Assembly (NCBI GenBank): GCA_947444925.1
Contig: CANFBW010000024.1
Location: 1-47,034 of the forward strand
From: Flavobacteriales bacterium
GTDB taxonomy: Bacteria; Bacteroidota; Bacteroidia; Flavobacteriales_C; GCA-002722245
Direction: 5' to 3'
DNA: 47,034 nt
The notes beneath the pieces were generated by a model, which saw only the letters and a list, made by a program, of their open reading frames with translations, was not told where the DNA came from and ran no database searches. This document shows, piece after piece, positions 3,531 through 36,026 of the stretch; position 1 is the first letter of the stretch; every line of letters starts with the position of its first letter. Both the position numbers and the translations under genes were made by a program.

Positions 3531-3535
3531 GGAAG

Positions 3536-10677: not shown

Positions 10678-10685
10678 TTTTTTTT
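10678..10685 (-). other. Eight-base homopolymer frameshift in the TonB receptor
   Basis: A run of eight A on the coding strand (GAAAAAAAAC). Deleting one A restores a continuous barrel reading frame. This is compatible with replication slippage, RNA-polymerase slippage or a sequencing indel. Confidence 0.8.
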
Positions 10686-11172: not shown

Positions 11173-11175
11173 TTA
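11173..11175 (-). other. In-frame TAA stop interrupting the TonB receptor
   Basis: On the minus strand the codons read AGC ACC ATG TAA CTG AAC. The reading frame before and after is identical and stays receptor-like, so a single base substitution explains the break. Confidence 0.85.
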
Positions 11176-18674: not shown

Positions 18675-18696
18675 TCACACTTAAAAGATTTGCATT

Positions 18697-19245
18697 ATGA
18701 GCGATATTAACGATGAGTTATTGAAAGCCATCAATAAGGAAAGTGTGAAAACGGTAAGTAACGATAGAGGTTACCGACGACACCAACTGATTGTTTTCAA
18801 ATTAGGCAACGAGGAATATGCACTGCCGATTGACCAAATAAAGGAAATTGTACTGACGCCTCCTATTACGAAGTTGCCACAAACCCCTGATTTTATCAAG
18901 GGTGTGGCCAACATCAGAGGAAACATCATTGCCATTGCCGATTTGGAAGAAAAGTTTGGCGTAACGCCCAATACCGACGAAGAAGAACGCAATAAAATAG
19001 GAATGTATACTTTGGTGATTGAGTCAGATGCCTTTAAAATTGGCATCTTGGTGAAATCGGTGCCAAATACATTGGCTGCATCGGATGATGAAATTGACGA
19101 CTCTCCAAATGTGGTACACGACAGTTCTTTGGACGACAATTACATCAAAGGAATTGTTAAGTCAGACAAGCGATTGATCATTCTTATTGATATTTTCAAA
19201 GTCATTAAGGAAGAGCTGATTGACAAGGCGACAAAAAAAGCATAA
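18697..19245 (+). CDS. cheW: Chemotaxis adaptor CheW
   Basis: 182 residues. After a polar N-terminus of about 28 residues comes a CheW domain: IVFKLGNEEYALPIDQIKEI, the LPQTPDFIKGVANIRGNIIAI block and VLVKSV-like strand (GILVKSVPNTL), then YIKGIVKSDKRLIILIDI. It couples the receptor to CheA. It begins 22 bases after the receptor stop. A strong hairpin follows before cheY. Confidence 0.95.
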   Translation: MSDINDELLKAINKESVKTVSNDRGYRRHQLIVFKLGNEEYALPIDQIKEIVLTPPITKLPQTPDFIKGVANIRGNIIAIADLEEKFGVTPNTDEEERNKIGMYTLVIESDAFKIGILVKSVPNTLAASDDEIDDSPNVVHDSSLDDNYIKGIVKSDKRLIILIDIFKVIKEELIDKATKKA

Positions 19246-19252
19246 AATTATT

Positions 19253-19297
19253 GTAAAATAAGTCGGCAAAAAGATAACCTTTGCCGGCTTATTTTAC
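19253..19297 (+). terminator. Strong hairpin between cheW and cheY
   Basis: An 18-base-pair stem (one G-T pair) with a 9-base loop aagataacc; arms gtaaaataagtcggcaaa and tttgccggcttattttac. It is terminator-like, but lies inside a co-directional operon. It may reduce read-through and set a higher level of receptor and CheW than of the downstream genes, or protect the 3' end of the upstream mRNA. A separate promoter in 19298-19357 is possible. Confidence 0.75.
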
Positions 19298-19357
19298 GTA
19301 ATGGGCTTTAGTAGTACATTCAAAAAAGTAACATTGAAAACCAGTAATATTTAAAAT

Positions 19358-19720
19358 ATGTCGAAAAAAGTTTTAATTGTTGATGACTCGCTTTACATGC
19401 GCACAGTAATCAAAGATGCCTTGGAAGGCGCAGGCTACGAAATTGTAGGACAAGCTGCCAACGGCGAACAAGCCATTGATTTGGCGATGGACTTACAGCC
19501 TGATTTAATTACCCTCGACAATATCTTGCCCGACATGATCGGTACTGATATTTTGGCGGTTTACAAAGAAGAAGGATTGACCTCGAAAGTCATTATGATT
19601 TCTGCTGTTGGACAGCAATCGGTGATTGATCAAGGAATGGCTTTAGGTGCCGACGACTATATCGTTAAACCCTTCACCCCTGAACAATTGATTGACAGGG
19701 TAAATAAGATTTGTCAATAG
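19358..19720 (+). CDS. cheY: Chemotaxis response regulator CheY
   Basis: 120 residues, one receiver domain: IVDDSLYMR (CheY-like acidic pair and Met/Arg), Asp in LITLDNILPD, Ser in MISAVGQ, Lys in IVKPFTPEQL. It is phosphorylated by CheA and probably acts on the motility machinery. No flagellar gene is present in the window, so the target may be the gliding or pilus apparatus. It is paralogous to the receiver at 16020-16388. Confidence 0.94.
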   Translation: MSKKVLIVDDSLYMRTVIKDALEGAGYEIVGQAANGEQAIDLAMDLQPDLITLDNILPDMIGTDILAVYKEEGLTSKVIMISAVGQQSVIDQGMALGADDYIVKPFTPEQLIDRVNKICQ

Positions 19721-19736
19721 ATAATCCCTTTCAATT

Positions 19737-20774
19737 TTGGAAAGAATAAGAATAGTAGTAATCGAAGACTCTGCTTTGATGCGACTGGTGGTTTCTGATA
19801 TTTTAAAGTCAGATCCCGAACTGGAAGTAGTGGGCATGGCCGGCAATGGAAAAGATGGTGTGGAGATGGTTGAAAAAACCCGTCCCCATGTTGTTATTAC
19901 CGACCTCATGATGCCTGAATACGACGGTTTGTATGCCATCAGAAATATCATGCGAAAAAACCCAATGCCCATTATGGTATTGAGCGGAGCCGGCGATGAA
20001 AGTTCGCAGGTGGTGTTTGAAGCCATGCAGGCTGGCGCTTGTGATTTTTTAGAGAAACCACAGCAAAAAGGAGCAGGAGGTGTACGCGGTGTGGACAAAG
20101 AATTGATCGCTATGGTGAAAGCCATTTCAAAAACAAAGGTCAATGCAGCAAAGGTATTGACGACCAATCAAAATACGCAGTTGCACAGTTTTGGTACAAG
20201 TTTGCCTTACGATGTTTTTGCCATTGGCGCCTCTACTGGGGGACCTGGTGCAATTGAAGAAGTAGTGCGTAAATTGCCGGGTAACTTTCCGGTGCCTGTA
20301 GTGCTGGCGCAACACATGCCAGCGAGTTTTATCACCTCTTTCGCAGCGCGCATCAATACGCTAACGCCTTTAAATGTAAAGGTGGCTGAAGAAGGAGAAA
20401 CTTTGCGTCCGGGTAACATTTACATCGCTCCCGGAACAGCAAATATGGAAGTGCAAAAAGTAGCAGGAAAAGTCATTGTAACGTTGAACAACAGAACCTA
20501 TACGGATTTTAACAATCCGTCCGTAAACTGTTTGTTTGAGTCGGTGGCCAACGTGTATAAAAATAAATCGATCTCTGTCATCTTAACCGGAATGGGTAAA
20601 GATGGTGCAAGAGGAATGAAAATGATGAAAGACGCAGGAGGTTACACCATTGCGCAAGACAAAAATTCTTGCGTGGTATACGGTATGCCTGCTGCGGCAG
20701 TTGAAATGGGCGGTGTAACACAGTCGGTTCGACTGGTGGATATATCAAGTTTTGTAGTGAGTTGTTTTGCTTAA
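19737..20774 (+). CDS. cheB: Chemotaxis methylesterase CheB
   Basis: 345 residues starting with TTG at 19737 (16 bases after cheY). An N-terminal receiver has the Asp56 motif VITDLMMP and Lys in LEKP. After a linker the C-terminal methylesterase/deamidase domain has the catalytic triad Ser166 (GASTGGPG), His193 (LAQHMP) and Asp289 (GMGKDGARG), each within three residues of the E. coli positions. It removes methyl groups from the chemoreceptor for adaptation and should be activated by CheA phosphorylation. The TTG start may lower its translation. Confidence 0.96.
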   Translation: MERIRIVVIEDSALMRLVVSDILKSDPELEVVGMAGNGKDGVEMVEKTRPHVVITDLMMPEYDGLYAIRNIMRKNPMPIMVLSGAGDESSQVVFEAMQAGACDFLEKPQQKGAGGVRGVDKELIAMVKAISKTKVNAAKVLTTNQNTQLHSFGTSLPYDVFAIGASTGGPGAIEEVVRKLPGNFPVPVVLAQHMPASFITSFAARINTLTPLNVKVAEEGETLRPGNIYIAPGTANMEVQKVAGKVIVTLNNRTYTDFNNPSVNCLFESVANVYKNKSISVILTGMGKDGARGMKMMKDAGGYTIAQDKNSCVVYGMPAAAVEMGGVTQSVRLVDISSFVVSCFA

Positions 20775-20791
20775 TTAATAACTAAGGGAGT

Positions 20792-23545
20792 ATGTCGAAA
20801 GAAGAAGAATACCAACAGGTTTTTTTAGCCGAGGCCAAAGGACTGGATGCCGATTTACAAGCGCATGTCGCTGCTTTAAAAAGCAATGCGTCAGATAAAA
20901 AAGCGGTGTCGGAGATTTTTAGATTGGTGCATACCATCAAAGGCAACGCCAACGCGCTGGGTTTTTCAGACATTGGTGATTTGGGGGAAATTATTGAAGG
21001 TATTTTTGCAGTGATTAAAAGTGCCGATGCTCCTTTGGATGCAATGCTGCTTGGTGATGTCGTGAAGGGAATTGAAAAAATGTCAGAACAAATTCACGCC
21101 ATAGATAAAGGAGAAAAAGTAAAATTCTTGCCCATTAAAACACGTTTGGGCATTGTGCTGAAAAAATTAAAACAAGGCGATGGCTTGGTCAGCGCCGATG
21201 CGCCAGCCCCTGTCGCTGTTGTTGAAGAAGTGAAAGCGGAAGTGGTGAAGGCTGTAGAAGAAGTGAAGGTGGAAGCAGTAAAAGTTGAGGTGGTGCCTGT
21301 TGCGGAAGCAAAGGCTGAGGAAGTAAAAACAGTTGTAGCGGAAGTGAAAGTAGCTGCACCTGCAGTAGATAAAAGTGCATTGGAAAATCAAGTAAAACAG
21401 ATGGTGGCCGACTTAAAAGCTGCCTTTGTGAATATCAATACCTTGCGCGACTTTTCAGCCTTGAGCACAGCACTTGCTGCAGTAGAAGCCGCTGGAAAGC
21501 AAGCCGAAGAAAAAGGCGTTGAGCAAATGAGTGCAGCATTTATCAGTTTTTTTAAAGAGCTGAATGCGGAAAAGTTGCTTTTAAATGACGAACATTCTGA
21601 AAACATTGATCCTGTGGTAGCCATCTTTGAAGAAGTGGGCGCTGCTTTAAAAACAGGTGAGAAAGTGAAATACGTGGCGGTGAAAGCGAAGTTGGGCGTT
21701 GTATTGCGCAAACTGAAGGAAGAAAATGCCGCGAATGCCAATTCTGGCGCACCTGCTGTTGAAGCACCAAAGGTAGAAGCCGTGAAAGTTGAAGCACCAA
21801 AAGTGGTGGCACCAGCTGCGGTTGCCCCAAAAGCAAGTGAGGGCGGATCATCGTCAACACCCGCCGGTTTTGAAGATAGCATTGACGATGATGTTAAAGA
21901 AGAATACAAAGAAATATTTTATTCAGAAGCCAACGAAAATCAAGAAGAGCTGAACCGTTTGTTTACCAAACTGGAACAAAATAAAAAGAACAAATCGGCA
22001 GTTGATGCTATCTTTCGCATTACGCATACCTTGAAGGGAAATGCGTTGGGTATTGGCCTTAAATCGGTGGGGGGAATGGCCCACGTGTTAGAAGACGTTT
22101 TTGGTGAGGTGCGCGAAGGCAAGCTGGAATTGACCGACGCGATATTCAAACAATTGTTCAAAGGCTTAGATACGCTAACCGCCCAAATACAAGCTTTAAA
22201 AACCAATGCAGTAGTGGAATACAAATGCATTAAAGGTGTGCTGCATTCTATTTTGAAAGGCGAATTCGACGAAAGTAAATTGGTGGAGGAGGAAGAAAAA
22301 GACGAAGACGACAGCAAAATGGTGTTTGCCGACTCTGTGCAGGTTCCGGTGAAAAAATTAGACGACCTCATGAATCTTGTGGGCGAGCTGGTGATCGAAA
22401 GAGACCGCTTGATATCCATGGTGAAAGACGATGCGGGCAATAAAAAGGTAGATTTTTCGCGCTTTGTGCGCATTACCTCCGACTTGCAATACTCGGTGAT
22501 GGATGTGCGCTTGGTGCAAATATCTTTCTTGTTCAATAAGTTCCACCGCGTTGTGCGCGATGCAGGAGCTATTGAAAAGAAGAAAGTGCAATTGGAACTG
22601 AAAGGAACTGAAACTGAAATTGACAGAAACGTGATATCGGTGATTTCTGATTCGATGATTCACCTCGTTAGAAACTGCGTGGGACATGGTATTGAAACTC
22701 CTGAAGAAAGAAAAGCAGCTGGTAAAAGTGAAGTGGGTACACTGACGTTGAACGCTAAAAATGAAAGCGACAATGTGATCATTCAAATTATTGACGATGG
22801 AAAGGGCATCAATCCAGCGGTCATTGGTAGAAAGGCGGTGGAGAAAGGATTGATCAGTGCAGAGGGTTTAAAAAGTTTGACCGACAAAGAGATTATTATG
22901 TATATTTTTGAACCTGGTTTCTCGAGTATGGATACGGTAACGGCCATTTCAGGACGAGGTGTTGGTATGGATGTGGTGCGCAAGTCGATTGACTCTATAG
23001 GTGGTAATGTTGAAGTAGATTCAGTGGTTGGAAAAGGTACTACCATTACTTTATTCTTGCCAAGTTCAATGGCGGTTAAAGGTACTCTTTTGTTTGAACT
23101 TGGTGACCAGGAATACGCCATGCCACTGGCATATACGGAGGCGGTAGTGTCGTTTAAGAAAAGCGATTTCCACAAGGTGAGTCAAGGTTTGATGGCGACT
23201 TATTTGAAAAAAAATATTTCCATTGTTTTCTTACACGATATTTTCAATGCGCACTTGGCTGGCAACAGAAATCGCTTGCACAAAAGTTTTGATGAGCTGG
23301 ATGAAGCGAAACAACTTGATGTAGTCATTGTAGCCTATGGTGGCAGAAACGTGGGATTTGTGGTGGACAAGCTTTTACAACAAAAAGAAATTGTGGAGAA
23401 GCCATTAATGAAACCTGTAAGTGATGTGCCTTTTGTAAGTGGTGTGACTATTTTAGGAAATGGAAAAGTATGTTTGGTGTTGAACGTGATGACGATAGTG
23501 CAGCATGTATTTATGCCTTCAACAAGAACCGTATTAATTGATTAA
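20792..23545 (+). CDS. cheA: Chemotaxis histidine kinase CheA with three HPt-like modules
   Basis: 917 residues, longer than the usual 650-700. HPt1 has His47 (LVHTIKGNAN). A Val/Glu/Lys/Ala-rich linker leads to a second HPt-length helical module (about 195-312) that lacks the His-x-x-Lys-Gly motif but ends in YVAVKAKLGVVLRKLK, matching the end of HPt1 (FLPIKTRLGIVLKKLK). After another Ala/Pro/Val linker, HPt3 carries His412 (THTLKGNALG). Then come the dimerisation domain (about 515-590), HATPase (IHLVRNCVGHGIE with N628 and H632; DDGKGINP; GRGVGMDVV), and the CheW-like domain (about 760-917). The N-box has Gly where Asp is usual (N-x-x-D-H-G). It phosphorylates CheY and CheB. Confidence 0.95.
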   Translation: MSKEEEYQQVFLAEAKGLDADLQAHVAALKSNASDKKAVSEIFRLVHTIKGNANALGFSDIGDLGEIIEGIFAVIKSADAPLDAMLLGDVVKGIEKMSEQIHAIDKGEKVKFLPIKTRLGIVLKKLKQGDGLVSADAPAPVAVVEEVKAEVVKAVEEVKVEAVKVEVVPVAEAKAEEVKTVVAEVKVAAPAVDKSALENQVKQMVADLKAAFVNINTLRDFSALSTALAAVEAAGKQAEEKGVEQMSAAFISFFKELNAEKLLLNDEHSENIDPVVAIFEEVGAALKTGEKVKYVAVKAKLGVVLRKLKEENAANANSGAPAVEAPKVEAVKVEAPKVVAPAAVAPKASEGGSSSTPAGFEDSIDDDVKEEYKEIFYSEANENQEELNRLFTKLEQNKKNKSAVDAIFRITHTLKGNALGIGLKSVGGMAHVLEDVFGEVREGKLELTDAIFKQLFKGLDTLTAQIQALKTNAVVEYKCIKGVLHSILKGEFDESKLVEEEEKDEDDSKMVFADSVQVPVKKLDDLMNLVGELVIERDRLISMVKDDAGNKKVDFSRFVRITSDLQYSVMDVRLVQISFLFNKFHRVVRDAGAIEKKKVQLELKGTETEIDRNVISVISDSMIHLVRNCVGHGIETPEERKAAGKSEVGTLTLNAKNESDNVIIQIIDDGKGINPAVIGRKAVEKGLISAEGLKSLTDKEIIMYIFEPGFSSMDTVTAISGRGVGMDVVRKSIDSIGGNVEVDSVVGKGTTITLFLPSSMAVKGTLLFELGDQEYAMPLAYTEAVVSFKKSDFHKVSQGLMATYLKKNISIVFLHDIFNAHLAGNRNRLHKSFDELDEAKQLDVVIVAYGGRNVGFVVDKLLQQKEIVEKPLMKPVSDVPFVSGVTILGNGKVCLVLNVMTIVQHVFMPSTRTVLID

Positions 23546-23553
23546 GATAAAGC

Positions 23554-24180
23554 ATGAGCAACGAAGAATTAAATAAGGAGAACGAGATGTTGGAGGCATT
23601 GATGAAAAGTGCTTTAGACAATTCTGCGCAAGCTTTTTCGGTGATGATCAAAAAGAAGATCGACCATCATTTTCATTTGGAGCGTTTTGATACGGCTACC
23701 GATTTGGAAGATATTTTGGCTATTTACCACGAAGGGCAATACACCGTGCTTGAAACCAAAATGCTGGGCGATTTGCGCGGCGTGTGCTATTTGATGATGG
23801 AGAAAACTACCTCTTCTCAAATTGCAGAACTGACCATTCCTGAGTTTTTAAAGGGGAAGGCCGACGCTGGTATGGCCGATGCCATGTTGCTTGAACTCGA
23901 CAATGTGTTGTCGGCTGCCACCATTACTGTTTTTTCAAATGCAATGAAGAAATCAACTTATGGCGGTGTTCCCGGAATGAAAAATTTGGCTTTGAATGAT
24001 TTGAATACCTTGTTGAATAAAGAATATGAGAAGTACAGAAAAGGAGAGTCGCCGTCACCGGGTCTTGTTGTTTACGCTGAATATTCAGTAGAGGGAGTGA
24101 CAGGCTTGCCTGGTTATGTGTGGGTTTTTAATGGTGATTTTTGCGATGTAGCAGTAAATCAAAGTATTTTGGTGGTATAA
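23554..24180 (+). CDS. CheC-family-like CheY-P phosphatase
   Basis: 208 residues, starting 8 bases after cheA. The CheC/CheX/FliY signature (Asp or Ser)-x3-Glu-x2-Asn-x22-Pro is met by Glu114, Asn117 and Pro140 (MLLELDNVLS to YGGVP), except that Ala110 replaces the leading Asp/Ser. An N-terminal equivalent (SALDNSAQAFSVM) keeps Asn23 but has Ala20 at the Glu position, so only one active centre seems intact. It probably hydrolyses CheY-P to end the signal. It is longer than typical CheX, with C-terminal strands (GLVVYAEYSVEG, GYVWVFNGDF). The next gene starts one base after its stop. The family assignment is by eye. Confidence 0.72.
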   Translation: MSNEELNKENEMLEALMKSALDNSAQAFSVMIKKKIDHHFHLERFDTATDLEDILAIYHEGQYTVLETKMLGDLRGVCYLMMEKTTSSQIAELTIPEFLKGKADAGMADAMLLELDNVLSAATITVFSNAMKKSTYGGVPGMKNLALNDLNTLLNKEYEKYRKGESPSPGLVVYAEYSVEGVTGLPGYVWVFNGDFCDVAVNQSILVV

Positions 24181-24181
24181 A

Positions 24182-26497
24182 ATGAAAGACAAAAAGAACA
24201 AAGGATTAAAAACAGGAATATTGCTTTTTCTGGCCCTGCTGATATCGGCACTGGCCCTTACTGTATTTGTGGTGACAATGTATTTCGTTGGCAATAGCAC
24301 GCACGTGCACTTGATACAAGTAGCTATGTTGGCGATTGTGATTTTGCTGCTCAGCGCCGTAATGGTGTTGAAAATGAAATTGCTCAATCCCCTGAACTAT
24401 TTAATGATGGCGCTGAAAAGCGTGGGGAGTAACCAAAAAATAAATCAGGAAATTATTAAAAAAACTTGGTTGGAAGACATGGGTAAAGATCTTGCCAAAG
24501 TGTCGGACAACATGGTGGAAGCAACAAAATTTGCTGTTGAAATTGGAGAAGGTGAATTTGACCGTGTGATTGAAAAAATTGACGAAGGTGATGCGCTGAA
24601 TATGGCGTTGCTCAACATGCGCGACAAGCTAAAGGAAGTTGCCGATCAAGAGAAAAAAAGAAATTGGGCCATTGAAGGTGTGGCTAAATTTTCAGAGATC
24701 TTGCGTCAAAGTCAAGACGACATCGAAGAGCTGTCCTACAATGTGATCAGTTCCTTAGTGAAATATTTGTCGGCCAATCAAGGCGGTGTTTTTTTGTTTC
24801 ACAACGATGGTACGCGTGCCGAAGATGGAATGCCCAACGGCACTGTTGAACTGATTTCATGTTATGCTTTTGAGCGCCGTAAATTTTTGAAAAATACTTT
24901 TGATGTCAATGAAGGTTTGGTGGGACAGTGTATTATTGAAGCCAACACGATTTACATTTCTGACGTTCCTGATTCTTACGTGAAAATTACGTCGGGACTG
25001 GGCAATGCCAATCCACGTGCTATTTTAATTTGTCCGCTTAAAGTGAATGATGAAATATACGGCGCCATTGAGCTTGCTTCTTTCAAGGCTTTTCAAGAGC
25101 ACGAAATTGCCTTTGTCGAAGAGCTTTGCGAAAGTATAGCCTCTACTTTAGCGTCGGCTAAAATGGGCATGAGCACTAAGAAATTATTGGTGGAAGCGGA
25201 GAAGGCGAACAAGGAGATGATGGAGAAGGAGGAGCAGATGAAGGACATTCAAAGTGAATTGAATGTGAAGTTGCAGGAGATCGATATTGAATCAAAAAAA
25301 TCTCAGAGTATCGCCGAGGCCATTAACAAAACCAATGCTTCTATTGAGTTTGATATGAATGGAAAGATCATAGGCGTGAATGAATTGTTTTTGGGCGTGA
25401 TGGGTTATACCAAAGCCGATTTGATTGGCAAATATGAAGAAGTTCTTTTGCCGGAAGCCGAAAAAAACAATCCTCAGCACGAAATGATGTGGGATTCGAT
25501 CAAGAAGGGACAGTATTTTTCGGGCGAGTTCAAAAGAAAAGGAAAACAGGGCAAAGACATTTGGATGAATGGTACCTACAATCCAATTTCCGATATACAC
25601 AACGTGCCCTACAAAGTTGTGAAGTTTGCGTCTTTCGTTACGGAGGCGAAGGAAATGGAAATGGATTTGAATGGTAAGCTGAGCGCTTTGAAAAACAGTG
25701 TGGGCGTGATTGAGATGAATCCTGATTTGACGTTTGCTTCGGTGAATCAATTGCTTTTAGACGTGATGGGATACAAACGCCTTGAAATTAGAAAGGCGAC
25801 CATTGAAATGTTTATTGGCAAGGAGCAATTTGATACGGCTGACTTTGCGGAGATGGCGAAGGAGTTACTCGCTGGAAAATTTCAACAGAAACTGTATCGT
25901 TTTTACAAAAAAGACAAGCCCAATGAAGAGCTGTATTACCAATGTACTTTAAGTCCAATCAACAACCTTTCGGGGCACGTGGTGAAGATCATGGTCATTA
26001 TGATTGATGTCACACAATCGGTGATCAACGAAAGAAAAATTAAGGAAGAATTAAAAGTAGCTTTGGAGAATTCGAACATGATCAAATTGTCGGATACTAC
26101 TAAAGATACCAAAGGAATGCTCAACGATTTAGATACGGCGCTGCACGAAATGAATCAAGGTGCGCTTGACGTTGAAAGCATGTTGAAGGCCGATAAAATA
26201 CCAATGCTAATTTTCAATCCGCAGACCTTGACGATTGAAAATACCAACGCTAAATTTGCGACCTTGTTTTTGAAAACGCCGCAAGATTTAAAAGCACTGA
26301 ATTTCTTTGCGCTCTTTGATGTGAAGAGCGAAGACCAGCGCGTATTCAACTTTGGTATGAATGAACTGAATGTGTTTAACTTGAATTTGAATACTACTGC
26401 TGACTTTGGCTCTGCCCCTGTTGGCGGCATCTTTACGCCCTTGTTGGGCAAATCGATGGACGACACGAAATATTGTTTAATAATATCTCAAATTTAA
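24182..26497 (+). CDS. Membrane GAF/PAS sensory protein of the che operon
   Basis: 771 residues. Two hydrophobic helices (about 11-34 and 43-64) form a membrane hairpin, followed by two HAMP-like helical stretches, a GAF domain (about 160-325), a coiled coil (about 330-375), two PAS domains (about 380-495 and 500-620) and a degenerate third PAS-like C-terminus. The GAF core reads ANQGG, CYAFERRKFL, EGLVGQ, DVPDSYVKITSGLG, PLKVNDE. The same pattern occurs in the proteins at 30767, 32728 and 33520. There is no kinase, methyl-accepting or cyclase output, so it must signal through contacts. It is translationally linked to both neighbours (1-base gaps), suggesting it is a component of the chemosensory array or feeds CheR. 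Confidence 0.85.
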   Translation: MKDKKNKGLKTGILLFLALLISALALTVFVVTMYFVGNSTHVHLIQVAMLAIVILLLSAVMVLKMKLLNPLNYLMMALKSVGSNQKINQEIIKKTWLEDMGKDLAKVSDNMVEATKFAVEIGEGEFDRVIEKIDEGDALNMALLNMRDKLKEVADQEKKRNWAIEGVAKFSEILRQSQDDIEELSYNVISSLVKYLSANQGGVFLFHNDGTRAEDGMPNGTVELISCYAFERRKFLKNTFDVNEGLVGQCIIEANTIYISDVPDSYVKITSGLGNANPRAILICPLKVNDEIYGAIELASFKAFQEHEIAFVEELCESIASTLASAKMGMSTKKLLVEAEKANKEMMEKEEQMKDIQSELNVKLQEIDIESKKSQSIAEAINKTNASIEFDMNGKIIGVNELFLGVMGYTKADLIGKYEEVLLPEAEKNNPQHEMMWDSIKKGQYFSGEFKRKGKQGKDIWMNGTYNPISDIHNVPYKVVKFASFVTEAKEMEMDLNGKLSALKNSVGVIEMNPDLTFASVNQLLLDVMGYKRLEIRKATIEMFIGKEQFDTADFAEMAKELLAGKFQQKLYRFYKKDKPNEELYYQCTLSPINNLSGHVVKIMVIMIDVTQSVINERKIKEELKVALENSNMIKLSDTTKDTKGMLNDLDTALHEMNQGALDVESMLKADKIPMLIFNPQTLTIENTNAKFATLFLKTPQDLKALNFFALFDVKSEDQRVFNFGMNELNVFNLNLNTTADFGSAPVGGIFTPLLGKSMDDTKYCLIISQI

Positions 26498-26498
26498 A

Positions 26499-27323
26499 AT
26501 GGCAGTTGAAATATCATTAGAAGAATTAGATGCCTTGTGTAACGCGATTAAGCAGCGCCATGGCATTGATTTTACCCAGTACGAGTCGGCATCATTTGCG
26601 AGAAGAGTATCACGTGCCATTGATTATTTCAAGATGGACAACTTAATGTCTTTGTGGCAAAAGATTCTGTCCGATAGAAACTTTATGTTTGATTTCGTTG
26701 ATGCGATTACAGTGGGCATGACTTCACTGTTTCGCGATCCGCAGTTTTGGAGAACCTTGAAAACCAAAATTGTGATGACCGAATTTAAAAACGCGACTTC
26801 AGTGAAGGTTTGGCACGCAGGCTGTTCAACCGGTGAAGAAGTGTATTCTTTTGGAATATTATTGCAAGATTGTAGGGTGCAAGAGAAATACAGGGCTTTG
26901 GCGACCGACTTGAATAGAAACTCTATTGAAGCTTGTAAAAAGGGATCGTACGATACGCTGACCATGGCTCAAAATGAAAAACAGTTGAAGGAGTACAATC
27001 CGTTTAAACAATTCAAAGATTTTTATACGCTTTCGGGAGATAGAAATTACATCCTGAAACCTGATTTGGTAAAACATGTTGAATTTAAAGTGGGCAATTT
27101 AACAACCGATCCCATCACCAGTAAATACGATATTATTTTTTGCAGAAACGTGATGATTTATTTTGACGATTCCTTGAAGCGCACCTTACTCGATAAATTT
27201 CACGATGCGCTTAATCCGGGTGGATTTTTAATCATTGGTTTCTTCGATTCGCTCGTGAATGTAATTGATAAAAACAAGTTTGAATTTTACGATTTGGGAT
27301 CGAAGATTTTCAGAAAAAAATAA
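26499..27323 (+). CDS. cheR: Chemotaxis methyltransferase CheR
   Basis: 274 residues. The N-terminal helical domain (SFARRVSRAID) is followed by the SAM-binding domain: VWHAGCSTGEEVYSFGI, ATDLNRNSIE, IIFCRNVMIYFDD, LNPGGFLIIG. It methylates receptor glutamates using S-adenosylmethionine, opposing CheB. It starts one base after the membrane GAF/PAS gene and is followed after 10 bases by the BLUF gene. Confidence 0.95.
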   Translation: MAVEISLEELDALCNAIKQRHGIDFTQYESASFARRVSRAIDYFKMDNLMSLWQKILSDRNFMFDFVDAITVGMTSLFRDPQFWRTLKTKIVMTEFKNATSVKVWHAGCSTGEEVYSFGILLQDCRVQEKYRALATDLNRNSIEACKKGSYDTLTMAQNEKQLKEYNPFKQFKDFYTLSGDRNYILKPDLVKHVEFKVGNLTTDPITSKYDIIFCRNVMIYFDDSLKRTLLDKFHDALNPGGFLIIGFFDSLVNVIDKNKFEFYDLGSKIFRKK

Positions 27324-27333
27324 TTGACCACTT

Positions 27334-27813
27334 ATGGATTTTTACAGAATATTATACAGCAGCAAAGCCTCTGATGCAATGAAATCTTCAGATGTAATGA
27401 ATATCATAGCTACTGCGCAGGCGTTTAATAAAACAGCAGATGTTACGGGTATGCTTTTGTTTATTGAAGATGGTTTTATCCAATATTTAGAAGGCGCTGA
27501 AGAAACTGTTGTGAAGTTGTATAAAAAAATTGCACAGGACTCGCGTCATCAAGATTGTAAGGTGCTGTTGCAGGGGCCTTCTGGTGAGAAAGAAAGGAGT
27601 TTTGCGTCGTGGAATATGGGGCTCAAAATAATTACCGATCAGGATTTTCAAGATCTGAAGGCGATGAATGAAAATCCCGATTTCAATTTGTTCAACGAAT
27701 TGGAGGGCAAGCCAGATATTGCAAAAGAACTGATGAAGTATTTTTACAACCATGGTGAAATTGACTTCGGGAAATTTTGGAATTCCGATAATAAAATCAG
27801 AAAAGATATTTGA
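27334..27813 (+). CDS. BLUF-domain blue-light photoreceptor
   Basis: 159 residues: a single BLUF domain (about 1-97) plus a short helical C-terminus (about 98-159) with no enzyme domain. The flavin-binding and photocycle residues are all present at the standard positions: Tyr8 (ILYSS), Asn32 (AFNKTADVTG), Gln50 (GFIQYLEGA), Trp93 and Met95 (ASWNMG), with the conserved DSRH and RSFASW features. BLUF proteins bind FAD and shift hydrogen bonding on blue-light absorption. Short forms act by protein interaction, as in PixD, which controls phototaxis in cyanobacteria. It is the last gene of the che operon, 10 bases after cheR, so light control of the chemosensory output is the natural inference. 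Confidence 0.95.
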   Translation: MDFYRILYSSKASDAMKSSDVMNIIATAQAFNKTADVTGMLLFIEDGFIQYLEGAEETVVKLYKKIAQDSRHQDCKVLLQGPSGEKERSFASWNMGLKIITDQDFQDLKAMNENPDFNLFNELEGKPDIAKELMKYFYNHGEIDFGKFWNSDNKIRKDI

Positions 27814-27999: not shown

Positions 28000-28107
28000 C
28001 GCATTTGTCATCCCTACCAACTCCGCGCGATCTGTCATCCCTGCCAACTCCGCGCGATCTGTCATCCCCGCCAACTCCGCACGATCTGTCATCCTTAGCA
28101 ACTCCGA
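28000..28107 (+). repeat. 27-base tandem repeat, four units
   Basis: Units at 28000-28026, 28027-28053, 28054-28080 and 28081-28107, each with a gatctgtcatccctgccaac core followed by tccgc. The last unit runs on into gaaggacctatcgccctgc, the end of module F, so the array appears to be an expanded part of that repeat. Confidence 0.85.
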
Positions 28108-28220
28108 AGGACCTATCGCCCTGCTTTTCATCTGCGGGCTCAATTGCGCGCAGTCATTTTTTTTAAGCATTGTCTTTTTTGAAATCTTAATTTGACAAAA
28201 GGTGTCGCTGATCGCAAGTG

Positions 28221-28251
28221 AAAAATCAGTGTTGGCACTGGTTTTTTTTTT
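28221..28251. terminator. Bidirectional intrinsic terminator
   Basis: Stem aaaaatcagtg / cactggttttt (11 base pairs, one T-G) with loop ttgg, followed by ten T on the plus strand and flanked by A on the other side. It can end both the che operon (plus) and the cheR-cheB operon (minus). Confidence 0.75.
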
Positions 28252-28352: not shown

Positions 28353-29198
28353 CTATTGCCCCTTAAACTTTCGGTAAATTTTATTGTCGTTGCTGATAGA
28401 CATAAATTCATCGGATGATTTATGCCAGTCAATGGATTCCTGCGCTCCCAATACTAAATATCCTTTTGGCTCAAGTGCGCCGTTGAGTTTTAATATGATG
28501 TTTTCCTGCTGCTCCTGATCGAAATAAATGAGCACATTTCGGCACAACACTAAATTGAATTGCGAGAAGGAAGTATCGAGCACCAAGTCGAAGTTTTTAA
28601 AGCGCACGTTTTTGTACTCGTCCATTTTAAAAACGAGTTTGTTCTCTACTTTTGAAAAATAATTTTCTGCTTTTTTTCCAGGAAAAACCACTTCCAGGTT
28701 TTTTTGGTAGTGGGGCAGGCGCCATGACAAGTAGGTGGCCGCTTTGGCTTGTTCCAATATCTCAGTGTTGATGTCGGTGCCCAGTATTTCGGCCTTGTGC
28801 AGGAGGTTTAATTCTTTGAGCAGAATGACCATGGATACTACTTCTTCGCCCGATGAACAGGCGGCGTGCCAGATTTTTACTTTTTCATTTTTTTCGAAAA
28901 GACGCGGCAGTATTTTGTCTTTTAAGAACACCCACATCGATGGATCTCTGAACAACTCGGTAGTATTAACAGTAACGGCATTTAAAAACGAGGTGAAGGC
29001 TACTTTGTCTTTAATCAAGGGCGTTAGTTGCGCAATGCTTGTTATTTTATTCACTTCCATAAAACGCGCAATACGGCGTGAAAATGAACCAATGGCATAG
29101 CCTGAAAAGTCAAATCCGTAGTTTTTCTTGATGTTGTCTATCAATGTTTTTATTTCCCCTTCGGGTAGGTTCAATGCTTCTATTTCAGTACTGCTCAT
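28353..29198 (-). CDS. cheR: CheR-family methyltransferase, second copy
   Basis: 281 residues. N-terminal helical domain (SFSRRIARFME, TELFRDPSMW), then the SAM domain: IWHAACSSGEEVVSMVI, GTDINTEIL, NLVLCRNVLIYFDQ, GYLVLG. Key motifs are intact, so it should be active on receptors or another protein. Its ATG overlaps the TGA of the upstream cheB gene (ATGA), so the two are translationally coupled. No chemoreceptor gene lies in this operon, so the target may be the soluble receptor at 16653 or one encoded elsewhere. Confidence 0.93.
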   Translation of the reverse strand: MSSTEIEALNLPEGEIKTLIDNIKKNYGFDFSGYAIGSFSRRIARFMEVNKITSIAQLTPLIKDKVAFTSFLNAVTVNTTELFRDPSMWVFLKDKILPRLFEKNEKVKIWHAACSSGEEVVSMVILLKELNLLHKAEILGTDINTEILEQAKAATYLSWRLPHYQKNLEVVFPGKKAENYFSKVENKLVFKMDEYKNVRFKNFDLVLDTSFSQFNLVLCRNVLIYFDQEQQENIILKLNGALEPKGYLVLGAQESIDWHKSSDEFMSISNDNKIYRKFKGQ

Positions 29199-29767
29199 AA
29201 AATGGTTTTGAGAAGGTTGATAATTTCTTCTATCGATAATGTTTGATCAATGGTGGTGGCGGCCAGCGCGGCTTTTGGCATGGTGTCAATCATGCATGTT
29301 TTAGGATCTTGCACCACGGTATGCCCGCCATTTAAATGAATTTTGCGCATACCATCGGCACCATCTTTATTGGCTCCAGTGAGCAGAATTCCCAGTAGAT
29401 TTTTTTTGTAGTATTCGGCGCAGCTGCCCAAGGTAATGTCAATCGACGGACGAGAACCCAACACCATTTCATCGCTGCTCATTGAAAACAGTCCGCTGCG
29501 CTCTATTGCCATGTGGTAGTTGGCGGGTGCTAAATATATTTTTCCGGGTGCGATCGCTTGCTTGTCGTGGGGCTCAACGATGTGTAATTTCGATTTGACG
29601 TTCAGCGATTCGGGCATGCCGGTGTACACGTGCTTCAGGCGGTGCACGGCAACAAAAATAGGGAGTCTGGTTTTGTCGGGAAGCTGACTGAAAATAGTGT
29701 TCAGTACCTGCAAACTGCCGGCTGATCCACCAATGACTACTGCTTTTATATCGAATTTACTGAGCAT
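29195..29767 (-). CDS. CheB methylesterase domain without receiver
   Basis: 190 residues comprising only the methylesterase domain: Ser in VIGGSAGS, His in FVAVHRLK, Asp in GANKDGADGM, plus GKIYLAPANYHM. With no receiver domain, its activity cannot be controlled by CheA phosphorylation in the usual way. I chose ATG at 29767, which begins MLSKFDIKAVVIGG, one base after the upstream stop; the longer frame would overlap that gene by 68 bases with an unrelated lead. It is coupled to the following cheR by a 4-base overlap. Confidence 0.92.
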   Translation of the reverse strand: MLSKFDIKAVVIGGSAGSLQVLNTIFSQLPDKTRLPIFVAVHRLKHVYTGMPESLNVKSKLHIVEPHDKQAIAPGKIYLAPANYHMAIERSGLFSMSSDEMVLGSRPSIDITLGSCAEYYKKNLLGILLTGANKDGADGMRKIHLNGGHTVVQDPKTCMIDTMPKAALAATTIDQTLSIEEIINLLKTIL

Positions 29768-29768
29768 T

Positions 29769-30572
29769 TTATTTTGTTTTTTGGTAGATCGGCAATTTGT
29801 CGTCAACTTTTTTGAACATGTTGGCATAAAAACCAAGAGGCATGGGTTCTTGATTGCCCAAGATCAGGTAGCCGTTCAATTTTGTAGCGGCATATAGGTT
29901 AGCGAGCAGGTTGCGCTGACCTTCGCTTTTGTATTGATTGAGAATGTTGGCGGCGTAAACTATTTCGTGTTGTTGTATATTGGTTTTTCGTTCCAAGGTA
30001 TCCGTGCTCCAAACGATGTGCTTGTCTACGTTTTTATTAAAGAAGTATTTTTTTTCGCGTAATGAAAAGTAGTTCTCGAACAAGGATTTGTCAAATACAA
30101 TTCCAAAGTTTTGGTGGCTGACATCGTGTTTGAAATCTTCAAAATACAATGCTTTTGCCCGAAGCAGTTTTTGTTCGTTTTCGGCATCGGCACTAATGCT
30201 GTAGTTGCTGAAGCCTAGGCGATCAAAGATAATGGCAAATGAAATGAGGTCTTCACCGCTGGCGCATTGCGGAATATAAATAGAGAAATGGTGGGCGCCA
30301 CCTTTCATCTCAATGAAACTGCGCAAAAAGTTCCAGGCGTCGGCATAGCGAAAAACTTCGGTTTTATCTACAATGAGATAGTGCTGCAATTCGCTGATAA
30401 AGCCTGACGACGAAGTGTTTTGGGAGAAGAGATCGACGCTGGATATTTTTTTTTGATCGAAAAAGTTTTCCAATTTTCTTTTGAGCAGTGTTTCGCTGCG
30501 CAAATGCAGATCAAGGCCTTTGCCTTTTAATTCAGTCAAAATACTGTCGTAATTCTCAAAAGATAGATCCAT
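29769..30572 (-). CDS. Degenerate CheR-like protein, probably inactive
   Basis: 267 residues aligning by eye with the CheR at 28353-29198. Corresponding blocks: KTEVFRYADAWNFLRSF for NTTELFRDPSMWVFLKD, IPQCASGEDLISFAI for HAACSSGEEVVSMVI, and NGYLILGNQEP for KGYLVLGAQES. The catalytic-region block CRNVLIYF is replaced by AANILNQY, and the N-terminal arginine-rich helix (SFSRRIARF) is weak (LKRKLENFF). It therefore probably does not methylate and may act as a scaffold or a SAM or receptor-binding regulator. It is the first gene of the three-gene minus-strand operon and ends one base before cheB. Confidence 0.78.
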   Translation of the reverse strand: MDLSFENYDSILTELKGKGLDLHLRSETLLKRKLENFFDQKKISSVDLFSQNTSSSGFISELQHYLIVDKTEVFRYADAWNFLRSFIEMKGGAHHFSIYIPQCASGEDLISFAIIFDRLGFSNYSISADAENEQKLLRAKALYFEDFKHDVSHQNFGIVFDKSLFENYFSLREKKYFFNKNVDKHIVWSTDTLERKTNIQQHEIVYAANILNQYKSEGQRNLLANLYAATKLNGYLILGNQEPMPLGFYANMFKKVDDKLPIYQKTK

Positions 30573-30766: not shown

Positions 30767-32701
30767 ATGAGGAAATTTTCGATCAGGTTAAAGTTTATCG
30801 TGCTTTTAAGTGTATTTGCTGTGGTGGGAAGTGCCACAGTAGTAGCGGTAAAATATTTTCAAAACAGTTTAAACGATAAAAGTGTTGATACGGCCATAAA
30901 CGTGGTGTCGCGCAACTCTGTATTGGTGCAAAAAAGCAATGCTTTGGTGTACCAGTTTTTGCGCAGCGACGATGTGAAGTTTGAATTGCGCGGTACGATC
31001 AAGCTTTTTGATCAGTCTTTGCGAGTGTTGAAAGATGGAGGAGTGCCGCCTGAAATGCAAACAGAGATGCACATTTCAGAGGTGAACAACATGGAAGTGA
31101 TCAAAAGTTTACAAGAAGTAGATTTGGTGTGGCAGCCATATAAGAACAGTATTTTGGCGCTGATCGACGACAAGTCCGTACTTGACGCAAGAAGCTATTT
31201 ATTGTCGCACAGCGATTCCTTACAAATGAGTAGTGAAGCAATGCTGGCCTACCTGTCGCAAGTGAGAGGCAAAATGGTGCTGAAAAATACGACCTTCGAT
31301 AATTTAAGAAATCTAGTTCCCGCAGCTCAAAAACTGTCCTATCTCGCCGAGTTGATTTACAATGGGAAAACCGACAAGAAAGCGGAGTTGAGTACTTTGT
31401 TGCAAAATTACCAAAGTGAAGTGGACAACCTTAATCTTTTATTTCCTTTGGCGTCATTAGCGCCTCAAGCCGCTCTTGCTTTTCAAACGTGGAATAACAC
31501 ATGGGCGAAAAGCAAGGCCAGTGCCAATGAAATCATGAACAGTTCGTTTTTAGGACACACGCAAGTTGTAAATGATTTGTATCCTAAGTTGTTCGCTGCT
31601 TCTGAAATACTCACTACCCTTTATTTAGCGAACAGCGAAGATGAAAAAGCAAACATTCGCTCTCAGCTCAATGTGGTGCTCATTATTTTATTTATTGTGA
31701 ATTTATTGACGATTTTCATTGCTTTGTTTTTCATCAACAAGTGGATTTTGAATCCCTTGAAAATCATTGCTGAAAAAACTTCGTTGCTCGCCGAAGGTAA
31801 AATTGATTCACTCATACAAATTGACTCAGGTGATGAAGTGGGCAATGTGGCGCTATCCATCAACCAGTCTATTGAAAACATTAAAAAGGCCAGTGAATTT
31901 GCCATGGAAATTGGCAAGGGAAGCTTTGATTTTGAATTCAGTAAAAGTGGTGAGCAGGACCGTTTGGGAGAAGCCTTGAGCGTGATGCGCAAGCAGTTGA
32001 AAGAAGTAGATCAGGAAAGCCGCGAAAGAAACTGGTCGACAACCGGTTTGGCGAAGTTCGCCGAGATTTTGCGCAACGATCAAAACGACTTAAGTAAGCT
32101 GGGTTTCGAAATAATTTCGAACATGGTGAAGTATGTAGAGGCCAATCAAGGCGCACTCTTTGTGGTAACGGAAAGAGATGGTGTTGAGTTTTTGGAGCTG
32201 GTGGCCTGCTACGCCTACGACAGACAAAAATACATTGACCTTGAAATACACAAGGGTGAAGGGCTCACCGGACAGAGCTGGGCAGAGGGTCAAGAAATTT
32301 ACCTCACCGATATTCCTGATGATTACATGCAAATCACATCGGGACTAGGACAAGCGAACCCAAATAGCGTATACATCATTCCGCTGAAGATCAATGAAGA
32401 GATTTTGGGTGTGGTGGAGTTGGCTTCTTTTTCGCAAGTAGCGTTGTTCAAAAAGGAATTTATTGGCAAGCTGGCCGAGTCAATAGCATCGACTTTGAAA
32501 GGGGTGAAAATCAACTTGAGTACCACCAAGCTTTTGGCCGAATCGCGCCATATGCAAGAGGAGTTGCACTCACAAGAAGAGGAGATGCGGCAAAATATTG
32601 AGGAAATGAAGGCCACACAAGAGCAAATGGCAAAGGCGGAATTGGAGTACAAAAACAAGATTGTAGAGCTTGAAGGGAAACTTAAAATGCTGAATGCCTA
32701 A
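30767..32701 (+). CDS. Membrane HAMP-GAF receptor of the Sia-type operon
   Basis: 644 residues. TM1 is about 9-29 and TM2 about 301-326, enclosing a helical periplasmic domain of about 270 residues, similar in style to PilJ or nitrate-type helical sensors. HAMP (WILNPLKIIAEKTSLLAEGKID) and a second HAMP-like repeat follow. A GAF domain (about 430-585) shares ANQGALF, CYAYDRQKY, EGLTGQ, DIPDDYMQITSGLG and PLKINEE with three other proteins in the window. A Glu-rich coiled coil (about 590-644) ends the protein. It has no catalytic output and probably regulates the SpoIIE phosphatase encoded two genes later. It is the first gene of an operon running to 37060. Confidence 0.87.
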   Translation: MRKFSIRLKFIVLLSVFAVVGSATVVAVKYFQNSLNDKSVDTAINVVSRNSVLVQKSNALVYQFLRSDDVKFELRGTIKLFDQSLRVLKDGGVPPEMQTEMHISEVNNMEVIKSLQEVDLVWQPYKNSILALIDDKSVLDARSYLLSHSDSLQMSSEAMLAYLSQVRGKMVLKNTTFDNLRNLVPAAQKLSYLAELIYNGKTDKKAELSTLLQNYQSEVDNLNLLFPLASLAPQAALAFQTWNNTWAKSKASANEIMNSSFLGHTQVVNDLYPKLFAASEILTTLYLANSEDEKANIRSQLNVVLIILFIVNLLTIFIALFFINKWILNPLKIIAEKTSLLAEGKIDSLIQIDSGDEVGNVALSINQSIENIKKASEFAMEIGKGSFDFEFSKSGEQDRLGEALSVMRKQLKEVDQESRERNWSTTGLAKFAEILRNDQNDLSKLGFEIISNMVKYVEANQGALFVVTERDGVEFLELVACYAYDRQKYIDLEIHKGEGLTGQSWAEGQEIYLTDIPDDYMQITSGLGQANPNSVYIIPLKINEEILGVVELASFSQVALFKKEFIGKLAESIASTLKGVKINLSTTKLLAESRHMQEELHSQEEEMRQNIEEMKATQEQMAKAELEYKNKIVELEGKLKMLNA

Positions 32702-32727
32702 GGGCTGAAAGAAATAAAAAACGAACT

Positions 32728-33510
32728 ATGAAGCGTAAATTAATTTTATTGTTGTTTTTTGGCGTGGGTGCGGCACTGTTGCTGTTTACGCTGTTTACGC
32801 ACAGGGCCGATTGGTCGCAACTCGTGCAAATGCAAGTGGCTGCGTCATTGTTGGTTTTAGCAGCGGTTTTCATTACCGCCGTATTTGTGTATACGGGTGA
32901 AAGCAATTGGAAAGAAATGGAAATGAGTCACAAAGAACTGTTGAAAGACAATACTGCATTGACTTTGCAATTGGCTGATTTAGAAGCTGCGGTGCAGTCG
33001 AACGAAAGGTCTACAGCACTCATCGCGCTTTTACAGGGCAGTTCGAGTTTGGAAAGCGCAGCCACTGAAGTGCTTAAAAAAATGGCCAAAGATCTTGAGA
33101 TTTGCCAAGGTGTTTTTTATGTCAAAGAGGGAACCGATGACCATTGTGTTTTTAGGGCCAAAGGTGCTTATGCCTACCACAAAACAGTAGCTTCTATTGA
33201 TGCTCCGGAGATAGGCGTTGGCTTGGTGGGACAGGTGGCAAAAGACAAAAAGATGCTGGTGCTCAACGAACTGCCAGCGGGCTATATCGAAGTCATTTCT
33301 GGATTGGGTAAAAGTCAACCTTCTTTTGTTGCCATTATCCCCCTCACAAATAAAGATGAAGTGGTGGGCGTTTTAGAGTTGGCGACACTAAAAACTTATT
33401 CTGAACAAGAAATAAAATATTTTGAACATGTGCAGGAGAGTTTGGGTTTTGCCCTTTATTTATTGTCGGAAAAAATTAAAGTCAACACCGCTTCAAAACT
33501 ATTATCCTGA
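32728..33510 (+). CDS. Membrane-anchored GAF protein
   Basis: 260 residues. Two hydrophobic helices (about 5-23 and 38-56), a coiled coil (about 60-100), then one GAF domain (about 100-245) with CVFRAKGAYAYHK, GVGLVGQVA, LPAGYIEVISGLGKSQP and IIPLTNKDEVVGVLELA. This is a reduced relative of the GAF in its neighbours, with Val-Ile in place of Ile-Thr before SGLG. There is no output domain. It sits between the receptor and phosphatase genes and probably forms part of the same membrane complex. Confidence 0.85.
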   Translation: MKRKLILLLFFGVGAALLLFTLFTHRADWSQLVQMQVAASLLVLAAVFITAVFVYTGESNWKEMEMSHKELLKDNTALTLQLADLEAAVQSNERSTALIALLQGSSSLESAATEVLKKMAKDLEICQGVFYVKEGTDDHCVFRAKGAYAYHKTVASIDAPEIGVGLVGQVAKDKKMLVLNELPAGYIEVISGLGKSQPSFVAIIPLTNKDEVVGVLELATLKTYSEQEIKYFEHVQESLGFALYLLSEKIKVNTASKLLS

Positions 33511-33519
33511 TGCTGCGCC

Positions 33520-36012
33520 ATGTTTAAAAACGGATTAAAAATAATCAAAGGATATGTGCTGTACGGATGTGCAGTGGGTTTTCTTTTTTTGGAGATGGTG
33601 TACTTGTATGCGCGCTCGGAGGAGCAAACGATGGCGGAGGCGCACTTTGACAATCCCCTGCTGTGGGCGCTGTCGCTGATGCCTATTACACTTTCGGTGT
33701 ACGCATATATTGTGGGCTACCGCTCTATTGCAAGTAAAGACCGTATTTATTCGCGCCTGATTCAACAAATTGAAATTGTAGAGCGCACGTCGCTTTTTGC
33801 GGAAGAAATTCGAAAAGGTGAATTGCTTTCTGAATTTGAAGCTTTCAATGAAGACGATACGCTGGGAGCTGCCTTATTGAAGATGCGCAGCAGTTTGCAA
33901 AAGCAGGCGAAGGAAGAAGAAAATAGAAACTGGATTGTCAATGGTATTTCAGAGGTCAGTGCCATATTGCGGAACAACAGTAAAATTAAAATATTGGGTT
34001 ATGAAATCATCCAATACATTGTGCCTAAAATTGGGGCAGTGCAAGGTGCCTTTTTTACTGTTGAAGAGCGCAAGGATAAGAAGACAAAAAAGCGAGAGGG
34101 TTTTATCAAGCAAGTTGCTGCTCACGCCTACAATAGAAGAAAATACCAGGAAGCAGAATATTTTTTTGGTCAAGGATTGATTGGTCAGTGCGCCCTTGAA
34201 ATGGATGTGATTCACCGAACAGAAATTCCCGATGAATACATGTCGATCAGCTCAGGTTTAATCGACGATAAAAAACCCGACAGTTTGATCATTATTCCGC
34301 TCATTAGTGAAGGTCAGCTTTTTGGTATAATGGAGTTTGCCGGTTTCAATCGTTTCAATGAATTGCAAGTGAATTTTTTAAAGGAATTGGGCGAAATTAT
34401 TGCGCGTTCAATTTTTAATATTTCTACCAACGAAAATACTTTGCGCCTTTTGCAGGAGGTAAATAAGAGCCAGGAGAGAACGCAAAAACTTTTGGCCAAC
34501 GCATCGGAATTAATTACGATTTACGACAAGGAAGGCAGTATCAAATACATTTCACCATCGGTGATCAATATTTTGGGTTATACTGCTGAAGAAGTAGAAG
34601 AGACTACTGATCACGATAGAATTAACACAGAAGACTTGGCCACTTTTCAATCGATATTTGACGCATTGGAGGCCGATCCTAAAAAAATTGTCATCACGCA
34701 GTACCGCTATTTGAAGGTAGATGGCGCTGAAATTTGGCTGGAAACCACGGCGCGTAACTTGTATGACAATCCGGCCATTGATGGTTTGCTCTTCAATACC
34801 ATTGATATCACTGAGCGACGTCAGGCTGAAAAAGAGCAACGCGAGCGCGCCAAAATGCAGGCTTTGTCTGAAAACTCACCCGATATTATTTTGCGTTTCG
34901 ATTTGCAGCGCATGGTGTCGTACATCAATCCAACGATTGAAAAGTACACCGGTATTTCTTCGGATCAGTTTTACATGAAGGCCATTGATGCTTTACCTGT
35001 TGATGTTGCTGTGATTGAAAAATGGAAGGAGTACATTGACCACATTGAGAAATCGAAAGAGCACATGGCGGTGGAAATGGAGTTTGTGAACGCCGAAGGA
35101 ATGAAGTTGTTTATGGAAGTCAACGCCATTCCGGAAGCAGCGCAGGACGGTACTTTGGAGTCAGTTTTGATGGTGCTTCACAATATAACAGAAGCAAAGG
35201 TGGCCGAGCTCAAAATAACCGAGGCGAATCAAAAGGTGAAAGACTCGATCAACTATGCAAAACGCATACAGAATTCTATATTACCCAAAGAAATTGTGCT
35301 GCAAGATGCGTTTAAAGAATCGTTTATGCTGTTTCGTCCGAAAGACATTGTCAGTGGCGATTTCCCTTTCATTGTACAAAAGGGCGATTATGTTTATTTC
35401 TCCGCTGTCGATTGTACAGGACACGGGGTCCCAGGTGCCTTGCTATCGGTAATTGGTTCATTGATCTTGAACGAAATTGTAAAATACGATACGCCAACAC
35501 CGGCAGTAATGTTGGATCACTTGCACGAGTCGGTTGTAAAAACGTTGCGTCAGGGGCAAGCCGGCGGCGAAAACGAACGCGATGGTATGGATGTGGGCAT
35601 GTGTCGCGTGCACCTTAAAACGGGGGAGTTTATGTTCTCAGGCGCCCACCGTCCGCTTTATATCGTGCGCCACGACCAAAAAGAAAATGAAGAATTGGAA
35701 GAATTGAAAGGCGATAAATATCCTATCGGCGGCGTGCAGTACAGAGGTCGCGAGAAGTTTGCGAATTTTGAAACGGTTTTGCAAAAAGGAGATAGAGTGT
35801 ATGTTTGTTCTGACGGATATCCCGATCAATTTGGGGGGCCTGACAAGGTGGAATTGAAAAAAATTGGACCTAAAAAAATTAGAAAAATATTGGTTGAAAA
35901 CAAAGACAAGTCCATGCATGATGTGCATCAGGCTTTGGTTTCAAACTTTGATCAATGGAAAGATTACCACAAACAAATGGACGACGTGTTGTTCATTGGA
36001 ATTAAATTTTAA
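33520..36012 (+). CDS. Membrane GAF-PAS-PAS SpoIIE-type serine/threonine phosphatase (SiaA-like)
   Basis: 830 residues. Two membrane helices (about 11-31 and 46-68), a HAMP-like helical stretch, a GAF domain (EEYMSISSGL-like motif DEYMSISSGLIDD), two PAS domains (about 320-440 and 445-570), a helical linker (AKRIQNSILP), and a PP2C/SpoIIE phosphatase domain (about 590-830). The metal-binding acidic residues are present in RPKDIVSGDF, AVDCTGHGVPGALLS, RDGMDVGM, CSDGYPDQFGG and QMDDVLFIG. In P. aeruginosa SiaA dephosphorylates SiaC; the genes for SiaB- and SiaC-like proteins follow directly, so the same role is likely. The GAF and PAS domains make it a multi-input switch. Confidence 0.93.
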   Translation: MFKNGLKIIKGYVLYGCAVGFLFLEMVYLYARSEEQTMAEAHFDNPLLWALSLMPITLSVYAYIVGYRSIASKDRIYSRLIQQIEIVERTSLFAEEIRKGELLSEFEAFNEDDTLGAALLKMRSSLQKQAKEEENRNWIVNGISEVSAILRNNSKIKILGYEIIQYIVPKIGAVQGAFFTVEERKDKKTKKREGFIKQVAAHAYNRRKYQEAEYFFGQGLIGQCALEMDVIHRTEIPDEYMSISSGLIDDKKPDSLIIIPLISEGQLFGIMEFAGFNRFNELQVNFLKELGEIIARSIFNISTNENTLRLLQEVNKSQERTQKLLANASELITIYDKEGSIKYISPSVINILGYTAEEVEETTDHDRINTEDLATFQSIFDALEADPKKIVITQYRYLKVDGAEIWLETTARNLYDNPAIDGLLFNTIDITERRQAEKEQRERAKMQALSENSPDIILRFDLQRMVSYINPTIEKYTGISSDQFYMKAIDALPVDVAVIEKWKEYIDHIEKSKEHMAVEMEFVNAEGMKLFMEVNAIPEAAQDGTLESVLMVLHNITEAKVAELKITEANQKVKDSINYAKRIQNSILPKEIVLQDAFKESFMLFRPKDIVSGDFPFIVQKGDYVYFSAVDCTGHGVPGALLSVIGSLILNEIVKYDTPTPAVMLDHLHESVVKTLRQGQAGGENERDGMDVGMCRVHLKTGEFMFSGAHRPLYIVRHDQKENEELEELKGDKYPIGGVQYRGREKFANFETVLQKGDRVYVCSDGYPDQFGGPDKVELKKIGPKKIRKILVENKDKSMHDVHQALVSNFDQWKDYHKQMDDVLFIGIKF

Positions 36013-36026
36013 AGTATTCATTATAA

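Follow-up and report, generated by a model that had tools for sequence, protein, structure and literature searches.

The last gene of a CheA-type chemotaxis (che) operon in the genome of an uncultured member of the Flavobacteriales encodes a stand-alone BLUF protein of 159 residues, which lies 10 bases downstream of cheR and carries all of the residues associated with BLUF photochemistry. BLUF genes beside che genes are already known; a BLUF gene that ends a Bacteroidota che operon is a new arrangement, found once. The operon is located in the window, that is, the entire stretch of 47,034 nucleotides that was analysed, which is one contig (C24) of a draft assembly (3.24 Mb in 123 contigs, rated 99% complete). 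The reading that we tentatively favour as the best available is that a PixD-type BLUF sensor modulates the output of CheA and CheY. An unconnected gene that simply shares the operon transcript is nearly as likely, given that no other genome examined has this adjacency.

The BLUF gene and the operon that it ends

The BLUF gene (27334-27813, + strand) begins with an ATG at 27334 and ends with its stop codon at 27813, and the reading frame is open. Residues 4-96 of its product match positions 2-92 of the 92-position Pfam model PF04940 (E 1.4e-27; 96 bits, where the cut-off is 25 bits). The preliminary description of this DNA had proposed a stand-alone BLUF domain with Tyr8, Asn32, Gln50, Trp93 and Met95 in place, and this was borne out by the Pfam search, by the translation, on which the numbering was checked, and by an alignment of 96 Bacteroidota BLUF sequences, where the Tyr (91/96), Asn (95/96), Gln (95/96), Trp (94/96) and Met (93/96) columns are strongly conserved. 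The best solved relative in the PDB is Slr1694/PixD of Synechocystis (E 1.9e-12). BLUF is the sole Pfam match in the 159 residues, and no effector domain was detected. An AlphaFold2 (AF2) model built from the single sequence reached a pLDDT of 42, too poor for a fold search, so that only its order of elements (strand-helix-strand-strand-helix-strand, followed by C-terminal helices) can be said to agree with BLUF. The protein is diverged and without close relatives, its best identity being 44% over part of the length. The GC content of the gene (0.371; GC3 0.394) is among the lower values within the operon, yet not clearly foreign.

Upstream of the BLUF gene, eight genes of the che set occupy positions 16653-27323 on one strand. 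The first encodes a methyl-accepting chemotaxis protein (MCP) of 673 residues with two PAS domains (16653-18674, +; Pfam MCPsignal 1e-38, PAS_9 1.2e-30), followed by CheW (18697-19245, +; CheW 1.3e-30), CheY (19358-19720, +; Response_reg 3.6e-26), CheB (19737-20774, +; CheB_methylest 3.3e-62 and Response_reg) and a CheA with two Hpt stretches (20792-23545, +; Hpt, H-kinase_dim, HATPase_c and CheW), the only CheA of the genome. The next gene (23554-24180, +) encodes a CheC-fold protein of 208 residues without a Pfam match. An AF2 model built from 23 orthologs (mean pLDDT 90) matched FliY, CheC and CheX structures in Foldseek (best E 5e-13), and Glu114 and Asn117 of its phosphatase motif (E114-x-x-N117) are invariant in those 23 orthologs; judged from this model, the protein is of the CheC type and a putative CheY-P phosphatase. 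The set is completed by a GAF-PAS-PAS protein with two N-terminal hydrophobic stretches (24182-26497, +; GAF_2, PAS_9) and by CheR (26499-27323, +; CheR 3.1e-41), which is 39-44% identical to three orthologs. The operon had previously been called otherwise complete. This is fair, and MCP, CheW, CheA, CheY, CheB and CheR were all found by Pfam, but CheD is absent from the operon: in Fulvivirga it is encoded between CheW and CheY, and the corresponding 112-base gap here contains no ORF.

The intergenic gaps from the MCP gene to the BLUF gene measure 22, 112, 16, 17, 8, 1, 1 and 10 bases, and thus lie between 1 and 22 bases except for that between CheW and CheY. Gene coordinates confirm the earlier placement of the BLUF gene 10 bases after cheR, on the same strand and at the operon end. 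A pattern scan found no terminator-like site between cheR and BLUF; the first strong hairpin with a T run after BLUF lies at 28220-28247 (+), as called by the same scan, which returned 3 such sites against 1.6 expected. Near the junction, sigma-70-type matches occur at roughly the rate seen in shuffled sequence, and no site there fits the Bacteroidota promoter pattern. Given the tight spacing, the lack of a terminator-like site and the lack of a promoter signal at the junction, the BLUF gene is probably co-transcribed with the che genes.

Distribution of the operon and of BLUF genes

A CheA-alignment scan of genomes from 84,980 species yielded 26 orthologous che loci, distributed among Fulvivirga, Splendidivirga, Aureispira, Xanthocytophaga, Flexithrix, Reichenbachiella, Persicobacter and several uncultured lineages, with Cyclobacteriaceae among the groups represented. 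Gene order is the same in nearly all of them, CheR is usually the final che gene, and a GAF/PAS protein stands between the CheC-like protein and CheR in about 10 of the 26. The operon of the window resembles the Fulvivirga/Aureispira type in having the same genes in nearly the same order (CheY 66-77% and CheA 46-62% identical), but the gene maps show no BLUF gene in any of the 26 loci, and at least one has CheD. In 11 of the 26 a signalling gene follows cheR on the same strand within 100 bases, and the genes occupying this slot encode CheY or REC proteins, STAS proteins, SpoIIE phosphatases, SiaC or PAS kinases. Signalling genes are thus often attached at this operon end, which makes a BLUF gene in that position less surprising and a functional link to the operon somewhat more plausible. 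The orthologous MCP of Fulvivirga (L123:4098-7568) combines an N-terminal bacterial globin domain with PAS domains, which suggests an oxygen or gas input there; the MCP of the window has PAS domains only.

BLUF genes occur in about 10% of 395 genomes sampled from the class and about 12% of 395 sampled from the phylum, the two samples overlapping in part. Comparison of the window's che proteins with the genes around 95 further BLUF ORFs from Bacteroidota placed none of these ORFs within a CheA-type operon (0/95). Four BLUF loci have che-like genes within about 8 kb: in one (L086), BLUF shares its strand with a response regulator and with a gene for a CheB-CheR-kinase fusion, which it adjoins, another (L034) has a convergent CheR gene, and in the remaining two (L190 and L191) CheA lies several kb away with other genes between. 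At L191 (206-5302), genes for CheA-REC, CheW, a response regulator, a roadblock-like protein and an MglA-like GTPase form a single run, the last two assigned by eye only, and the BLUF gene lies about 2.8 kb downstream of it. The BLUF proteins closest to that of the window in the tree are 31-38% identical and are encoded in unrelated gene contexts, and querying named genomes directly with this protein gave no match.

A conserved BLUF-che association in Bacteroidota was thus found neither in the 26 operons nor around the 95 BLUF genes. The neighbourhood survey suggested in the preliminary description found the adjacency in this genome only, and the junction may be incidental. What holds of the claim that BLUF belongs to a chemotaxis operon is the intact gene, its last position and its spacing, which resembles that of co-transcribed genes; what weakens it is an adjacency unique to this genome. 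The function put forward in that description, a blue-light influence on chemosensory output, is plausible but only partly supported.

Searches of the source genome itself recovered one CheA, two MCPs and two BLUF genes, the second BLUF gene being on contig C53 in an unrelated context away from che genes. Nine other genomes of the family contained no BLUF, no MCP, no match to the CheC-like protein and no full-length CheA. Within the sampled family, the source genome is therefore alone in having this che operon with its BLUF gene, by gain here or loss elsewhere. Three family members of another genus, without full-length CheA (L221, L222 and L223), encode small stand-alone proteins (frames of 134-149 residues) that are 32-50% identical to the Hpt domain of CheA. 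Contamination of the assembly was considered and judged unlikely, as the tetranucleotide profile of the window correlates at 0.98 with the other contigs of the genome and a contig from the same genus carries the gene for a protein that shares 90% identity with the product of window 2124-3041.

A proposed blue-light input to CheA-CheY signalling and its alternatives

The favoured reading supposes that a Bacteroidota operon of the CheA type, already in place, acquired at its 3' end a gene for a short PixD-type BLUF photoreceptor. The protein would contact a product of the same operon in a light-dependent manner, with CheR, the GAF/PAS protein, the CheC-like phosphatase and CheY as candidate partners, and blue light would thereby shift CheA/CheY signalling, the output of which could be the T9SS/gliding motor. 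The analysis establishes the gene, its residues and its position, and detected no break between it and cheR; we infer that the protein binds FAD and responds to light, and likewise its partner, its influence on CheY-P and the resulting behaviour. In favour of a BLUF input to CheA and CheY are the intact domain with all of its photochemistry residues; the same-strand, 10-base gap with no terminator-like site after cheR; the location of the gene in the only CheA operon of a two-MCP genome; and the presence of a signalling gene in the post-cheR slot of 11 of the 26 orthologous loci. By analogy, BLUF proteins control motility elsewhere, as PixD does with PixE (PMC5812497) and as a BLUF protein does in Spongiibacter (PMC8805636). 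Against it stand a BLUF-che junction conserved in no other genome examined, the unrelated contexts of the tree-closest BLUF genes, and a source genome that is a draft of 123 contigs.

The preliminary description named no precedent; a close one is in fact published. In Spongiibacter nanhainus CSC3.9, a complete che cluster with motA/motB has a BLUF gene immediately upstream; blue light raises the expression of these che and stator genes through BLUF, and the effect of light on motility is lost in a BLUF mutant (PMC8805636). The two cases share a BLUF gene that directly adjoins a che cluster, complete in Spongiibacter, where blue light acts on motility through BLUF in a non-phototroph. They differ in that the Spongiibacter gene lies upstream, beside flagellar stator genes, in a deep-sea host, whereas here BLUF comes last, after cheR, in a member of the Bacteroidota with GldL. 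In Synechocystis phototaxis, PixD binds PixE in the dark and lets go of it in blue light (PMC5812497). PixD is likewise a short stand-alone BLUF protein without an effector domain, as well as the best PDB match, but the BLUF gene described here has CheA-type operon neighbours and its host lies outside the cyanobacteria; none of the window proteins that were scanned matched PATAN, as a PixE-like (PATAN-REC) partner would. PYP-MCP fusions and pyp operons offer another photoreceptor route into Che signalling (PMC12826048). They too tie a blue-light receptor genetically to chemotaxis signalling, although PYP belongs to a different photoreceptor family and is fused to the MCP, whereas the BLUF protein is encoded by a separate gene. 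In the literature searched, which is incomplete, no BLUF gene was described within a che operon of Bacteroidota.

If BLUF does modulate this operon, a soluble blue-light sensor would be linked to CheA/CheY signalling in Bacteroidota, a link that would bear on the outputs of che operons and on control of the T9SS motor in this phylum. It would also make this a second lineage with BLUF next to che genes, beside the one described case that was found.

The strongest competitor, which we regard as plausible, is that BLUF came to lie downstream of cheR by chance and simply shares the operon transcript, acting outside the che pathway; possible targets would include the many PAS/GAF kinases, partner-switching proteins and T9SS regulation. 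The uniqueness of the junction, the unrelated contexts of the nearest stand-alone Bacteroidota BLUF genes and the second BLUF gene of the genome away from che genes all fit such a passenger, but the cheR-BLUF spacing is as tight as that inside the operon, the insertion falls exactly at the operon end, and sensors within signalling operons would often be expected to serve those operons. Were BLUF a passenger, it would show that light sensors can join signalling operons without a lasting association.

An unlikely alternative is that BLUF acts as an anti-repressor or as the partner of a regulator, in the manner of AppA or BlsA, so that light alters the amount of the Che proteins, not their activity. 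The BLUF-dependent rise of che and stator transcripts in Spongiibacter under blue light (PMC8805636) is what such control would produce, but Pfam identified no repressor gene in or beside the operon, the sole exception being the gene for a LuxR-type regulator some 12 kb upstream of the operon (3494-4186). Similarly doubtful is a reading in which the direct target of BLUF would be CheR or the CheC-like phosphatase, as the adaptation arm of a chemosensory system controlling the T9SS gliding motor; a soluble light sensor encoded separately would then let a gliding bacterium respond to blue light. Least probable of all is that the protein is no light sensor in practice, through lost function or a role in redox or temperature sensing, a view to which the single, diverged gene without close relatives lends itself indirectly but which the five intact residues and open frame oppose.

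GldL and further features of the genome and the window

The genome encodes the GldL motor subunit (TIGR03513, E 8e-61; contig C32), and PorP/SprF and CHU_C proteins are encoded in the window. The presence of GldL makes T9SS or gliding possible, and the host may thus glide. A phosphorylated CheY-like domain can bind GldL, as described for PorX of Flavobacterium (PMC10951265), and together with the presence of GldL this speaks for the favoured reading.

Convergent to the operon, window 28353-30572 (-) holds a second methylation set, consisting of a CheR, a CheB that lacks the receiver domain, and a diverged gene resembling CheR; in a genome of the same genus (G008), a related pair of CheR and CheB (39% and 47%) occurs without an MCP. 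Between BLUF and the convergent cheR2 gene lies a 27-base tandem repeat of about 4 units (TCATCCC..CCAACTCCGCGCGATCTG; window 28003-28110). Farther along, window 30767-36653 (+) encodes a GAF/HAMP protein, a GAF protein, a PAS-SpoIIE phosphatase and a DUF6272 protein, an assembly that resembles a partner-switching module, and related SpoIIE and DUF6272 genes are found near the che operon in two other loci (L125 and L126). Finally, a gene for a TonB-dependent receptor (window 9870-11901, -), flanked by a YfiR-like gene and a hybrid kinase gene, is interrupted by an in-frame stop near 11173 and by a second break near 10650, and represents either a pseudogene or an assembly error.
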